From positions 62,001 to 126,000 of the forward strand of contig JAUYQQ010000019.1 of the NCBI GenBank assembly GCA_030697165.1: 64,000 nucleotides of DNA. Reading direction: 5' to 3'. The DNA is from Acidobacteriota bacterium. GTDB lineage: Bacteria > Acidobacteriota > Vicinamibacteria > Vicinamibacterales > UBA2999. The notes beneath the pieces are model-generated. The model was not told where the DNA came from and searched no databases. It saw only the letters and a program-made list of their open reading frames with translations. The translations under genes and the position numbers were made by a program. This document shows positions 36,223 to 41,297 of the stretch, piece by piece (the first letter of the stretch is position 1; each line of letters starts with the position of its first letter).

Positions 36223-37041
36223 TTACACCGCGTGGACGAAGCGAGTATGAACGGCGACTTGTTGGGCGTGCGACCACCGGGCCGCCGAAACGGCAGCGCC
36301 AGAGCGAACACCACCCAGGCGGCGCGTCCGGTCATGCTCCCCTTTCCAGACGGGAGTGGTATTTCCGACTCCCGACTCCCGACTCCCGACTCCCGTCTGG
36401 ATCGTACGGCCGCCGGAGCTGCGCGCCACGGACTGGGCCGCGAGAATGACGACCGCCGTGTCGCTGCCTTCGATGGCGCGTTCGATGCGGAACCAGGTGG
36501 AGGCCGGCAGCCGGCGCAGCGCCTGCGCCGGCACGTCGATCAGGTCGATTGCGACCAGCGTGCACACGCCCGACTGAACGACCAGGTTCAGCGACTTGAT
36601 CGCGCGATCGATCACCCGCTCCACGAACGTGCCGGGGCCGTTGACCGCGCGCACGCCCGGCAGCCAGGCCGGGTCGATGGCCACCGCGGTTTTCGACACC
36701 GCCTGGCCGCGCACCCACAGCAGGCGCGGCAGCACGAGGCCGCAGGCCGCGGCCGTCGGCGGGTCGAAGCGATCGAAGGTGTCGATCAGCGCCACGGTTT
36801 CGCCACGGCGGGTCGCCGCCGCCAGCGCGGCCCACACCAGTCCCGTACGACCAGACGAAGCCGGTCCCACCACTTCAGACACCTGCCCGCGCGGCAGGCC
36901 ACCGGCGAGTCCGCGGTCCAGGGCCTCGACGTCCAGCGGCGACACCGCGTCTTCGCCCAGGCGTTCGGGAATGGCAGAGGTGAGGGTTCGGTCGAGTTTT
37001 CGCTCTCGGAGCAGGGCTTCTACGGTGGCGCGGACGGCCAT
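36223..37041 (-). CDS. imuA: ImuA, RecA-like factor of the SOS mutagenesis cassette
   Basis: A 272-residue RecA-fold protein of the ImuA/SulA-like group. The Walker-A-like loop is GPASSGRTG (about 59-67); then VALIDTFDRFDP and a Walker-B-like LVAIDLID segment follow. AGGTGAG precedes the ATG. It is the first gene of imuA-imuB-dnaE2, all on the minus strand with close spacing. A GGGAGTC heptamer tract (36366-36397) is translated as TGVGSRESGVG near 216-226, in the C-terminal part where ImuA proteins are variable and ImuB is bound. A candidate LexA-type operator lies 13 bp upstream. Confidence 0.85.
   Translation of the reverse strand: MAVRATVEALLRERKLDRTLTSAIPERLGEDAVSPLDVEALDRGLAGGLPRGQVSEVVGPASSGRTGLVWAALAAATRRGETVALIDTFDRFDPPTAAACGLVLPRLLWVRGQAVSKTAVAIDPAWLPGVRAVNGPGTFVERVIDRAIKSLNLVVQSGVCTLVAIDLIDVPAQALRRLPASTWFRIERAIEGSDTAVVILAAQSVARSSGGRTIQTGVGSRESGVGNTTPVWKGEHDRTRRLGGVRSGAAVSAARWSHAQQVAVHTRFVHAV
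36366..36397. repeat. GGGAGTC heptamer tract inside imuA
   Basis: More than four tandem units in the 3' third of imuA, read in frame. Confidence 0.9.
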
Positions 37042-37053
37042 ATCTCACCTCTA

Positions 37054-37103
37054 TTCGCTTAACTTTCGCCATTGTAACGGCCCGTAGGCGAAAGTCAAGC
37101 GAA
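37054..37103. promoter_or_regulatory. Candidate SOS (LexA-type) operator pair upstream of imuA
   Basis: Two 11-bp-period direct repeats stand in inverted orientation: TTCGC-N6-TTCGC at 37054-37069 and GCGAA-N6-GCGAA at 37088-37103 (the latter within GGCGAAAGTCAAGCGAAAG). The 11-bp period equals that of GTTC-N7-GTTC LexA boxes of alphaproteobacteria. The pair lies between imuA and the divergent small gene, so each direction has one box near its start. That LexA binds here is inference. Confidence 0.6.
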
Positions 37104-37130
37104 AGACGGGTGGGCGTTAGAATCCACAGA

Positions 37131-37427
37131 GTGCTGAACCTCTACTTCACCCGCTATCGCAATCGCCGGTGGAGCCCGATCTGGGGCGCGTTCACGGCCA
37201 CCACCGTGTCGGCGGTGTATCTCATCGCCGGCTTCAGCGGGTATCACTTGAACCGGCGCGCACGGTTCTTCTCCGACGCCGCCTGGGCCGACAGCATCAT
37301 CTGGTGGCAAGTCGGTGCCGGAGCCGCAGTGATACCGGTCGCCATCTACTTTTGGCGCAAGGGCGCACGCGAGATCGATCAACGCCTGGCCACCGAGCAA
37401 AACAGCCACAGATTAAACACAGATTAG
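37131..37427 (+). CDS. Small two-helix membrane protein ending in repeat DNA
   Basis: 98 residues from a GTG at 37131; an upstream GTG at 37110 would add seven codons. There are two hydrophobic helices (about 19-37 and 58-76) with WRKGAREIDQRLA at the cytoplasmic end. The final residues SHRLNTD and the stop come from the CACAGATTAA repeat at 37405, so the original C-terminus was probably replaced. It is divergent from imuA across the candidate SOS operator. No family recognised. Confidence 0.55.
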   Translation: MLNLYFTRYRNRRWSPIWGAFTATTVSAVYLIAGFSGYHLNRRARFFSDAAWADSIIWWQVGAGAAVIPVAIYFWRKGAREIDQRLATEQNSHRLNTD

Positions 37428-37636
37428 GCACGGATTTATTGAGCGCCCGACCAGCGAGACCCTCGGTTCGCTGGCGGCGCTACGCGCCGCTGGTCCGATG
37501 CAGGCCCGCGAGAAATGAGTCTCAAGAAGCCAGCGGACTCATTTCGTCGCGGGCCTGCATCGGACCGAGCGCCGGGCGGTAGCCCGGCGCCAGCGAACTC
37601 GCATCTGTGTCTAACCGGTGTTTAATCTGTGGCTGG
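37405..37636. repeat. Cruciform module 1 (CACAGATTAA units flanking a 133-bp branched palindrome)
   Basis: Outer stem GTTCGCTG (37467-37474) / CAGCGAAC (37592-37599). Inside it are hairpin A CGGCGC-TAC-GCGCCG (37476-37490), a long inner stem of 30 against 31 bases (37493-37522 with 37137+400 = 37537-37567, one unpaired base) and hairpin B GCGCCGGGC-GGTA-GCCCGGCGC (37570-37591). CACAGATTAA-type units precede it (37405-37438) and inverted ones follow (37601-37636). Reverse-complement of module 2. The 37428-37673 stretch holds no gene. Confidence 0.9.
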
Positions 37637-37673
37637 AACTCTCCCCCTCTGCGGCTCGTCTCTAGCAGGCAGC

Positions 37674-40196
37674 ATGCTGCAAGATCTTCGCTACAGCCTC
37701 CGGCTGCTCCTCCGCCACCCGGGCTTTACGCTCACCGCCATCAGCGTGCTCGCCCTCGGCATTGGCGTGAACGCCGGCATCTTCGGCCTGATCAACGGCC
37801 TGCTGCTGCGGCCCCTGCCCGGCGCCGAGGCGGCCGGCGAGATCGTCGGCCTCTACAGCCACGACCGCACCACCGAGCGCGGCTATCGGGCCTTTTCGTA
37901 TCGCGGCTTCAGCGAGGTGCGCGAGGCCGGCGGCCCCTTTGCCGTGCTGGCCGCGCACAACGTGACCATGATCGGCATCAGCGAGGGCAACACCACGCGC
38001 CAGTCGTTTGCCGATGTCGTCAGCACGCGCTATTTCGAAGCGCTCGGCGTCAAGCCGGTCTTCGGCCGCGATTTCACGCTCGAGGAAGAACGGCCCGGCA
38101 GCCAGCAGCGCTCGGTGATCGTCAGCTATCGCTACTGGCAGCGCCACAATTTCGATCGCGACCTGTTGTCGAAGAGCGTGCGGGTCAACGGCCAGGACTA
38201 CGGCATCATCGGCGTGGCGCCCGAAGGCTTCGGCGGCACCACCGCCATTCTCGGCACCGAGTTGTGGCTGCCGCTCGGCGTGCACGACGACATCGAGAAC
38301 GACTTCGACACGCGCGCGCACCGCAAGCTGGCGGATCCCGAGACCTACGCCCTGGTGGCGTTCGGCCGGCTCAAGCCGGAGGTCACACAGGCGCAAGCCG
38401 ACGAGCAGCTCAAGGTCCTCGCCGCCGCGCATGAAAGCGCCTACCCCGCCGAGAACAAGAACCGCGATCTCATCGTCCGGCCGCTCAGCCGCCTGAGCAT
38501 CAGCACCAGTCCGAGCGACGACACGCAGCTGTACGTGCCCATGGCCATGCTGCAGGCCCTGGCCGCGGCCGTGCTGCTCACGGCGTGCCTGAACCTGGCC
38601 AACATGATGCTGGCGTTCGGTACCGCCCGGCAGAAAGAGATTGCGATCCGTCTCGCCGTCGGCGGCGGGCGCGGGCGCATTGTCCGGCAGCTGCTGCTGC
38701 AGGGGCTGCTGCTCTCGCTCGCCGGCGGCGCCATCGGGCTCGTGATCGCGTCGTGGGCCATGCAGATCCTGGTGTCGTCGATCTCCACGGTGCTGCCGAT
38801 CGCCGTGCTGCTCAACGTGACGCCGGATCAACGCGTCCTGGTGGCCACGCTCCTGTTCAGCGCCGGCGCCACGATCGCGTTCGGCCTCTGGCCGGCGCTG
38901 CAACTGTCGCGGCCGGATCTGCTGGCCGCGCTCAAGGACCAGGCCGGCGAGATCAGCGGCCGTCTCGGCCGCCGGGTCACGGTGCGCGGCGCGCTGGTCA
39001 CCGTGCAGCTCGCGCTGTCGCTGGCGCTGCTGATCCTGAGCGGCCTGTTCGTGCGCACGGCCGCCGCCGGCGCCTCGGACGACCCGGGCTTCCGCGTCGA
39101 TCCGCTGGTGGTCGCGCAGATCGAACCCAAGCTCGGCGGCTACGACGACCGGCGCAGCCGCGCGGTGCAGTTGACGACGCTCGAACGGCTGCGGAGCACG
39201 CCGGGCATCGAGGCAGCCGCATCGGCGTCGATCATCCCCTTCGGCGACATCACGGTCGGCACTGCCGTGCAGCGCGAAGGCCCGCGCCTGACGAACGAAG
39301 ATCCCGAGGCGCGCGGCAAGCTGTTCCGCGCCCTCAGCTACACGATCAGCGCCGACTACTTCCGCACGCTGGGCCTGACCATGCTGCGCGGCCGCGAGTT
39401 CACGCCGGGCGAGGAAGCGGATGGCGCGGGGGTCGAGCCGGTGATCATCGACTCAACGCTCGCGGCACAGCTCTTCCCCGACGAGGATCCGGTGGGCCGG
39501 ATGGTGCAGTTTGGCGCGCAGTACGGCGGTGACGCTGCGCAGCCGATGCAGATCGTGGGGGTGGCCCCGCCGGTGCGCCACGACCTGATGACGCGCGAGG
39601 CCGAGGCGCACATCTACCTGTCGTCGGGCCGCAGCCTGGCCAACCACATGTATGTCTATGCCCGCGCGACCGGCGGCCTCGAGGGCGGCGCCATCCTGGC
39701 CACGGTGCGCGATCAGCTGAATGCGATCGATGCGGCGATGCCGGTGGTGTCGCTGAAGCCGTTTCGCACGCTGCACGAACAGAGCGCCTCGGTATGGCTG
39801 CTGCGAGCCGCCGCGCGGTTGTTCCTCGCGCTCGGCCTCGCCGCCGCCTTCGTCGCCATTGTCGGCCTCTACGGCGTGCGCAGCTACCTGGTATCGCGAC
39901 GCTCGCGCGAGTTCGGCGTGCGCATGGCCGTCGGCGCCGCACCGGCCGACGTGCTGCGATTGGTGATGCGCGAAGCGTTTGTCACCACTGCGGCGGGGCT
40001 CGCCGGCGGGCTGGTGCTCGGCGCCGCGCTCGGCTACGGGCTGAGCCGCATCATGTTCCAGGTCAGCCCGTTCGACGTGGCCACGCTGGCCACGGCCGCA
40101 GGGCTGCTGGGGATCGCGTCATTGGCCGCGGCCTTCATCCCGGCATGGCGTGCCGCCGGCATCTCACCCAGCACAGCCATTCGAGCCACCGATTAA
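37674..40196 (+). CDS. Orphan MacB-like permease (ADOP family), copy 1
   Basis: An 840-residue protein from the ATG at 37674 (MLQDLRYSLRLLLRHPGFT). It has two FtsX/MacB-type halves: helix 1, then a large periplasmic MacB_PCD domain (about 45-270), three helices and FtsX signatures (MLAFGTARQKEIAIRLAVGGGRGRIVRQLL), a second periplasmic domain, and a final FtsX block (SRRSREFGVRMAVGAAPADVLRLVM). Such duplicated permeases without ATPase or fusion-protein neighbours are typical of Acidobacteriota. The substrate is unknown; the extrusion or mechanotransmission role is inferred from MacB. The gene is bracketed by two inverted cruciform modules. Confidence 0.9.
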   Translation: MLQDLRYSLRLLLRHPGFTLTAISVLALGIGVNAGIFGLINGLLLRPLPGAEAAGEIVGLYSHDRTTERGYRAFSYRGFSEVREAGGPFAVLAAHNVTMIGISEGNTTRQSFADVVSTRYFEALGVKPVFGRDFTLEEERPGSQQRSVIVSYRYWQRHNFDRDLLSKSVRVNGQDYGIIGVAPEGFGGTTAILGTELWLPLGVHDDIENDFDTRAHRKLADPETYALVAFGRLKPEVTQAQADEQLKVLAAAHESAYPAENKNRDLIVRPLSRLSISTSPSDDTQLYVPMAMLQALAAAVLLTACLNLANMMLAFGTARQKEIAIRLAVGGGRGRIVRQLLLQGLLLSLAGGAIGLVIASWAMQILVSSISTVLPIAVLLNVTPDQRVLVATLLFSAGATIAFGLWPALQLSRPDLLAALKDQAGEISGRLGRRVTVRGALVTVQLALSLALLILSGLFVRTAAAGASDDPGFRVDPLVVAQIEPKLGGYDDRRSRAVQLTTLERLRSTPGIEAAASASIIPFGDITVGTAVQREGPRLTNEDPEARGKLFRALSYTISADYFRTLGLTMLRGREFTPGEEADGAGVEPVIIDSTLAAQLFPDEDPVGRMVQFGAQYGGDAAQPMQIVGVAPPVRHDLMTREAEAHIYLSSGRSLANHMYVYARATGGLEGGAILATVRDQLNAIDAAMPVVSLKPFRTLHEQSASVWLLRAAARLFLALGLAAAFVAIVGLYGVRSYLVSRRSREFGVRMAVGAAPADVLRLVMREAFVTTAAGLAGGLVLGAALGYGLSRIMFQVSPFDVATLATAAGLLGIASLAAAFIPAWRAAGISPSTAIRATD

Positions 40197-40201
40197 GAGC
40201 A

Positions 40202-40453
40202 AGACAGCCACAGATTCAACACAGATTGGGCACAGATTTGCGCGTTCGCTGGCGCCGGGCTTCCGCCCGGCGCCCGGTCCGATGCGCGCCCGCGACGAAA
40301 TGAGTCCGTTGACTGATGGAAGACTCATTTCTCGCGGGCGCGCATCGGACCGAGCGGCGCGTAGCGCCGCCAGCGGACGGTGCCAAATCCAGTAATCGGT
40401 GGCTAATCGGTGCCTAATCTGTGGCCTGTCGTGATCTGCGTTAATCTGTGGCC
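40202..40453. repeat. Cruciform module 2, inverted relative to module 1
   Basis: CACAGATT units (40208-40240), then outer stem GTTCGCTG (40244-40251), hairpin B' GCGCCGGGC-TTCC-GCCCGGCGC (40252-40273), inner stem 40276-40306 with 40322-40351, hairpin A' CGGCGC-GTA-GCGCCG (40355-40369) and an outer-stem partner to 40378. It is followed by inverted CTAATCTGTGG units to 40453. The hairpins are in the opposite order to module 1, showing that it is an inverted copy. The variable bases (TGCGCGCCC against TGCAGGCCC) are changed on both arms together. Confidence 0.9.
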
Positions 40454-40454
40454 C

Positions 40455-41297
40455 ATGACGAAGCGCATTATTCTGATCTCCGGCGCGACTGGCCAGCAGG
40501 GCGGCGCGACGGCGCGCGCGCTGGCCGGCAAGGGCTTCACGATCCGCGCGCTCACCCGTAATCCTGACAGCGATGCCGCCAAGGCATTGGCCGCCACCGG
40601 CGCCGAGCTCGTCAAGGGCGACCTGGATGACGAGGCGTCGTTGAAGGCCGCGCTGGCCGATGCGTGGGGCGCCTACGCGGTGCAGAACACGTGGACGGCC
40701 GGCGTGGAAGGCGAAGAAGCGCAGGGCCATCGTTTTGCCAGGGCCGCGCGCGCGGCCGGCGTGCAGCACTTCGTGTATGCGTCGGTGGCGTCGGCCGATC
40801 GCAAGACCGGCATTCCCCACTTCGACAACAAGTCGCGCGTCGAAGACACCGTGCGCAGCCTCGGGTTCACGTCCTACGCCATCATCCGCCCGGTGTTCTT
40901 CATGGAGAACCTGCCCAGCCCGTGGTTCCTGAATGGCGACAAGCTGGTGAGCGCGCTCGACCCGAAGACGGTCCTCCAGATGATTGCCGTGAGGGACATC
41001 GGCCAGTACGGCGCGCTCGCGTTTACCGACGAGCGCTTCAGGAACCTCGAGCTCGACATTGCCGGCGATGCGGCCACCATGCCGCAGACCGCCGAGATCC
41101 TGAGCGGCGCACTCGGCCGCACGATCGAGTACCTGCAGATCCCGATGAGCGAGATCCGCAAGAACAGCGACGACTTCGCGTTGATGCTGGAATGGTTCGA
41201 AGCCGTGGGCTACGACGCCGACATCGCCGGGAATGCGAAGACATATGGCGTGAAGCCCACCTCACTCAAAGAGTGGGCCGCACACCTGAAGAAATAG
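40455..41297 (+). CDS. NmrA-family NAD(P)-binding protein
   Basis: 280 residues from the ATG at 40455, which directly follows the last CTGTGGCCC repeat unit. The N-terminal dinucleotide motif is GATGQQGG (10-17), with VYASVASADRKTGIPHFDNKSRVEDTVRS (about 110-140) and an IRPVFFMENL segment typical of NmrA/HSCARG proteins. These sense NAD(P) state or act as reductases; the SDR Tyr-x-x-x-Lys pair is replaced by a HFDNKS segment with only the lysine. Its leader is wholly repeat-derived, so its promoter may lie in module 2. Confidence 0.9.
   Translation: MTKRIILISGATGQQGGATARALAGKGFTIRALTRNPDSDAAKALAATGAELVKGDLDDEASLKAALADAWGAYAVQNTWTAGVEGEEAQGHRFARAARAAGVQHFVYASVASADRKTGIPHFDNKSRVEDTVRSLGFTSYAIIRPVFFMENLPSPWFLNGDKLVSALDPKTVLQMIAVRDIGQYGALAFTDERFRNLELDIAGDAATMPQTAEILSGALGRTIEYLQIPMSEIRKNSDDFALMLEWFEAVGYDADIAGNAKTYGVKPTSLKEWAAHLKK

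Follow-up and report, generated by a model that had tools for sequence, protein, structure and literature searches.

We analysed a window of 64,000 nt from the genome of a member of the Acidobacteriota (contig JAUYQQ010000019.1, positions 62,001-126,000; all coordinates are counted within the window), in which two modules, each made of a cruciform-forming core between facing arrays of short repeats (iterons), occupy the intergenic gaps on either side of a gene for an ADOP-family permease. The modules are probably non-autonomous derivatives, resembling miniature inverted-repeat transposable elements (MITEs), of very small mobile elements, and a nuclease of the GxxExxY family would move them in trans. 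That the modules and the GxxExxY elements are related as one family is well supported and very likely; whether the GxxExxY nuclease is the mobilising enzyme we judge to be about evenly balanced, and the four-way junction formed by the core may be its substrate. The mobile-element family of arrays, cores and GxxExxY genes is apparently widespread and undescribed.

The modules lie in 37405-37636 and 40202-40453. In both, facing arrays of three 11-bp units (CACAGATTnnn) surround a core, which is 133 bp long in module 1 and 135 bp in module 2; the two cores are 87% identical, and that of module 2 has the opposite orientation to that of module 1. The parts of the modules are the following:

37407-37436, + strand: left iteron array of module 1, 3 x 11 bp (CACAGATTAAA CACAGATTAGG CACGGATT), outer end ACAGC; position-weight matrix (PWM) score 51.7
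37466-37598, + strand: cruciform core of module 1, 133 bp, four-way junction, from folding
37466-37473, no strand: 5' arm of the outer stem of module 1, 8 bp, partner 37591-37598, from folding
37474-37490, no strand: side hairpin 1 of module 1, 7 bp, loop of 3, from folding
37491-37567, no strand: long inner stem of module 1, 32 bp, one bulge, 12-nt loop, from folding
37569-37590, no strand: side hairpin 2 of module 1, 9 bp, loop of 4, from folding
37602-37631, - strand: right iteron array of module 1, inverted, from the PWM scan
40209-40238, + strand: left iteron array of module 2, 3 x 11 bp, from the PWM scan
40244-40378, - strand: cruciform core of module 2, 135 bp, reversed relative to module 1, from folding
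40394-40423, - strand: right iteron array of module 2, inverted, from the PWM scan
40430-40453, - strand: partial array (ATCTGCGTTAATCTGTGG) immediately upstream of the gene for an NmrA-like protein, from the sequence

A preliminary description of this DNA had reported two modules with branched elements of 133-135 bp, the second being the reverse complement of the first. Both were located, each folds as a four-way junction, and the second core does lie in the opposite orientation. The stem sizes given there hold for the outer stem (8 bp) and the second hairpin (9 bp), whereas the first hairpin has 7 bp rather than 6, and the inner stem, given as 30 bp, measures 32 bp with one bulge in module 1 and about 30 bp overall. 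Moreover, the CACAGATTAA units described as flanks do face each other, but each is a threefold array of the 11-bp repeat CACAGATTnnn and not a single unit. Where the copies differ (TGCAGGCCC against TGCGCGCCC) both arms have changed together, as had been remarked. Decayed arrays upstream of the NmrA-like gene are also found in two congeneric genomes, G008 and G006 (genomes are designated here by G numbers and contigs by C numbers). A small open reading frame (37110-37427) receives its TAG stop from the left array of module 1 and has no homologue in the four congener regions compared.

Folded as single-stranded DNA, the two cores reach energies of -71.8 and -71.7 kcal/mol, with z-scores of -15.0 and -11.2 and no equal among the shuffles (0/200). 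This stability by itself could be explained by palindrome correction. The preliminary description had proposed to judge the fold by whether further copies keep the pairing, and nine cores related to these, taken from this genome and its congeners, retain it by paired changes: 90.7% of the cells of their alignment are paired, pairing falls to 35-42% when the partners are shifted by 1-3 columns, and 27 two-sided pair changes are present, a number reached by none of 500 shuffles. Long DNA palindromes are corrected by template switching, and this process could keep them perfect and give paired changes with no selected fold. We regard this explanation as rather unlikely; the restriction of sequence conservation to a part of the inner stem speaks in its favour, but the outer stem and the side hairpins keep their pairing as well. 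Furthermore, ten further cores whose stem sequences are unrelated, including a pair flanking a GxxExxY gene on contig C22 and one core from G029, a genome of a different family from the source genome, have the same four-way layout, which correction alone would not rebuild. Since this layout is shared by cores of unrelated sequence, the comparison points to selection acting on the shape of the core.

No Rfam family matched the region 36800-41000 above its gathering score, and the sub-threshold matches were mostly to microRNA families fitting a perfect hairpin. Nothing was retrieved for the repeat strings from the open-access literature, which was searched by family name, repeat string and topic (subscription papers, preprints and ISfinder lie outside this scope); both results agree with the view, already put forward in the preliminary description, that the fold belongs to no described family. 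A terminator function of the elements was rejected, the T-tract being absent.

The arrays are a multicopy family in this genome. They were counted by pattern search and with a PWM on 657 kb of sampled genome, using shuffles as the control, as the repeat is a mirror palindrome and makes reversed sequence unusable. According to these data, 62 arrays exceed the threshold (0-1 in shuffled sequence), and module 1, used as a genome query, gives 39 matches. The arrays appear as complete modules, as inverted pairs with short loops and no core (C22:529898, C6:16917) and as single arrays; most of them enclose no gene, and modules are also found singly at many other sites. Among 297 genomes of the phylum, the 11-bp array type is confined to the genus. 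Contigs C8 (447143-447238) and C10 (308692-308823) both terminate within the same kind of core, and in G003 their end genes adjoin each other on either side of an array; the cruciform core therefore probably caused the break in the assembly.

In three congeners (G001, G005 and G007) a small gene stands between facing CACAGATT-type arrays. Five array-bracketed proteins belong to the GxxExxY family (TIGR04256, 112.8-131.8 bits against a cut-off of 35), with matches of 112.6-113.3 bits to Pfam PDDEXK_3 (PF13366, PD-(D/E)XK superfamily) and a length of about 130 aa. The genome under study harbors eight GxxExxY copies, one of which (C22:522362-522700) has cruciform cores on both sides followed by facing period-9 arrays, while another (C11:381-722) has one core and a CACAGATT array; both proteins are of the clade with CRCnGAT iterons. 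The hairpins on the two sides of a GxxExxY gene of G002 (G002:C37:34405) are both cores of the window's own type, and the GxxExxY gene of G029 has cores on both sides, too. More generally, about a dozen out of 40 GxxExxY genes have long hairpins no more than a few hundred bases away, the background being 4 in 183.5 kb. The statement that no transposase is in sight is correct for the window, but in other parts of the genome and in its relatives a candidate enzyme gene, that of GxxExxY, stands between the same arrays and cores.

This association extends far beyond the genus. In a survey of 80 GxxExxY loci, drawn from many lineages of bacteria and two of archaea, terminal inverted repeats (score of at least 14) enclose 61 of the 80 genes and none of 120 control positions, and strict arrays number 88 in 149 kb of GxxExxY flank versus 6 in 233 kb. 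These repeats consist of arrayed CRCnnAG units (CACAGAG, CACGGAG, CACGAAG, CACAAAG, CGCCAAG), identical in type at both ends of an element, and in a set of 80 bracketed elements the length is 418-906 bp (median 494). The array type tracks the protein tree; CRCnGAT iterons, including the type of the window, correspond to one clade, with 1 change and an SH-aLRT value of 99. None of the 80 elements has a direct repeat of at least 4 bases at its boundary (permuted mean 0.6), so that target-site duplication was not found in this set, which was the one tested because the empty sites of congeners are too diverged intergenically at the borders of the window's modules. We consider it possible, with slightly less than even confidence, that a new and very widespread class of minimal mobile elements, each of about 0.5 kb with a single PD-(D/E)XK gene, iteron arrays as ends and no target-site duplication, has the GxxExxY proteins as its enzymes, that these mobilise non-autonomous cruciform units in trans with the four-way junction as substrate, and that the CACAGAG/CACGAAG/CGCCAAG-type arrays present in genomes of many phyla are their ends and scars.

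A different enzyme could be at work, namely an unlinked transposase moving the iteron-array ends, between which small genes of a selfish or defence-like kind (GxxExxY, S23) would ride as passengers. The genes of the S23 four-helix bundle, present in ten copies in this genome, are relevant here; at 30 TIGR02436 loci of the phylum they have inverted arrays of iterons of about 7 nt close by on both sides, just as a passenger gene might, and the many arrays that enclose no gene would fit the same picture. The S23 loci appear to be a parallel class of single-gene elements. Their iterons, however, are of other sequence (GGGACCT, GGCAGAT, CAGTGGT, TTAGGCA and others), with CACAGAG/T arrays at 0/30 of the genes, which supports ends that are specific to the protein; array letters differ by protein family and, within GxxExxY, by clade. 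Moreover, the six Y1 transposase (Y1_Tnp) genes of the genome have neither arrays nor long hairpins within 1.5 kb (0/6), and 30 unbiased loci with facing CACAGAG arrays hold GxxExxY once and no other gene family between the arrays. On balance, we hold the passenger explanation to be unlikely, though worth keeping in mind.

The comparison of orthologous sites revealed a full module, a core-less pair, a single array or nothing, according to the genome. At the C21 site, this genome and G005 have full modules with the same type of core, G006 has a core-less pair, and the site is empty in G008, G003, G001, G007 and G004. The C21 gap of G002 contains an element not related to these, which has CGCAGATTA arrays of period 9 and a cruciform core of its own. 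The C1 module is missing in all five congeners compared, and at one further site G001 has an array-GxxExxY-array element plus a partial second copy, while this genome has two leftover arrays. In differing between congeners in this way, the modules behave as insertable units, and to this extent the earlier proposal is supported. Some arrays nonetheless persist for long, since a single array immediately upstream of tsaE is common to three species (this genome, G005 and G008).

This persistence might be taken to mean that the arrays and cores are not mobile but are regulatory signals, recognised by an OmpR/PhoB-like regulator on 11-bp direct repeats or acting as intergenic RNA structures. All arrays are intergenic (0/61 inside genes), the outer ends of single arrays are for the most part within 0-50 nt of a gene end, and between tandem genes the single arrays are oriented with the genes 21 times and against them 8 times (p = 0.02), all of which a regulatory role would accommodate. 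It would not account for presence and absence at the same site, for the restriction of the arrays to the genus, for the bracketing of GxxExxY in many phyla or for the missing T-tract of a terminator. The regulatory-only reading was rejected, as the orientation bias is modest and presence/absence is left unexplained, and we consider it very improbable.

The same comparison bears on the permease, which the preliminary description had taken for the cargo of a composite transposable unit. The gene and its two flank markers are:

37674-40196, + strand: ADOP-family duplicated permease, resident gene (TIGR03434, 699.7 bits against a cut-off of 622.3)
36223-37041, - strand: imuA-like gene, synteny flank marker, from a profile match
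40455-41297, + strand: NmrA-like NAD(P)-binding protein, synteny flank marker, from a profile match

A single gene flanked by two inverted cores that are 87% identical does look like such a unit, in which the permease would travel as cargo between two modules. However, orthologues of the permease with 66-69% identity are present in congeners without the modules: the orthologue adjoins imuA in G001, and in G002 one other gene intervenes; it adjoins amidase and MFS genes in G001, G002 and G007, and in none of these places is there a module or an array. Modules occur, moreover, singly at many other sites. As the permease is syntenic where the modules are absent, the modules came and went independently of it, which is the very pattern that the preliminary description had named as contradicting its proposal. 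The permease is an old resident gene and not cargo, and a composite transposon is hardly credible. The permease is missing in G008. ADOP-like permeases form a large paralogous family, for which this genome yields 44 matches and G007 yields 111.

As for the candidate enzyme, its PD-(D/E)XK catalytic residues are intact; in 21 sequences D67, K79, E28 and Y31 are invariant, and E77 and Q91 are conserved in at least 90%. A sequence search of solved structures with GxxExxY gave no match. The AlphaFold2 model (pLDDT 95.5) retrieved nuclease folds with Foldseek, with a best E-value of 0.005 and nothing below 0.001, among them the Hjc resolvase 2wiw (probability 0.85, TM 0.45).

We can depict the following possible scenario. 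A complete element would consist of an inverted iteron array, in some cases a core, the GxxExxY nuclease gene, in some cases a second core, and the facing array; the window modules would have retained both arrays and one core and lack the gene. A GxxExxY protein of the CRCnGAT clade, made elsewhere in the genome, would bind the terminal arrays and cut at or near them, or at the four-way junction of the extruded core, after which host repair or replication would copy the element to a new intergenic site with no target duplication. Decay would then remove the core and later one array, leaving core-less hairpins and single arrays. Long perfect palindromes and hairpins are unstable, which would explain the loss of cores and then of one array, and the series from module to core-less pair to single array fits this instability.

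Several points weigh against this scenario. No movement has been observed. The lack of a target-site duplication implies insertion without the usual footprint, and agreement between array type and nuclease clade would also be expected from simple co-inheritance. The fold matches of the GxxExxY model to Holliday-junction resolvases are weak, and we know of no enzymatic activity or function of this family, which is named after its motif. Cores are not required, given that outside the order they are near only a minority of GxxExxY genes. Finally, the bracketing of S23 genes by other iteron arrays keeps the passenger explanation alive; small selfish genes in general may be flanked in this way, in which case the arrays would not mark the protein between them as the mobiliser.

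Iteron arrays of the CACAGAG-like kind are found repeatedly in the intergenic DNA of bacteria from many phyla, and no explanation for them was found in the open-access literature; the same literature has no link of GxxExxY to repeats or to mobility, and the association of arrays with GxxExxY is undescribed in it. The link to one small nuclease family gives these repeats an origin and gives GxxExxY a testable role. If it is true that the nuclease acts on cruciforms, this would be transposition by a junction-cutting PD-(D/E)XK enzyme and not by a DDE or HUH transposase.

Among known systems, the 23S rRNA intervening sequences (IVSs) with the S23 protein are likewise small selfish elements with a terminal inverted repeat and one short open reading frame, that of Coxiella, itself selfish, measuring 428 nt and carrying an S23 ORF and a terminal stem of 28 bp (PMC4990558); the protein and the iterons are different here, and the insertions are intergenic rather than in rRNA. 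An RNA-level counterpart, in which base pairing between the facing arrays of the transcript would close a stem around the gene or core for RNase III to excise, seems a very slight possibility to us: whole elements are terminally inverted and the sizes are similar (median 494 bp versus 428 nt), but the elements lie between genes and not within rRNA, their presence and absence is at the DNA level, and RNA excision alone does not explain their spread.

The gene enclosed by the arrays clearly belongs to the GxxExxY family (TIGR04256; PF13366). The Holliday-junction resolvases (Hjc) share with it the nuclease fold, and a four-way junction is the substrate of a resolvase; Cas4-like SSO0001, lambda exonuclease, XisH and the R2 endonuclease domain are PD-(D/E)XK nucleases of the same fold class. 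GxxExxY is not a member of any of these families, and its Foldseek match is weak.

The MITEs of DDE insertion sequences (RUP, Correia, bcr1 and others of this kind) are, like the modules, short, multicopy and geneless, with an autonomous partner elsewhere and with terminal inverted repeats, which are present here. The modules are unlike them in having no target-site duplication, three-fold iteron arrays as ends, an inner four-way junction and a partner that is not a DDE transposase; no DDE transposase was found between arrays in the loci examined, the genome not having been searched for every DDE family. In REPIN/RAYT systems, too, palindromic non-autonomous units occur between genes in many copies and have a small nuclease gene elsewhere in the genome as partner, and RAYT elements have no target-site duplication, as in the elements described here. 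In contrast, the ends here are iteron arrays and the partner is a PD-(D/E)XK protein; by inspection, the core ends, which are of the GTTCGCTGGC/GCCAGCGAAC or CCCGCG types, do not show the GTAG or CGTC tag that a REP hairpin of 20-40 bp has at its foot, and Y1/RAYT enzymes were rejected as mobilisers, with no arrays or hairpins near the Y1 genes. The modules work like a MITE or a REPIN with a partner enzyme, but, when tested, they lacked defining features of both systems.

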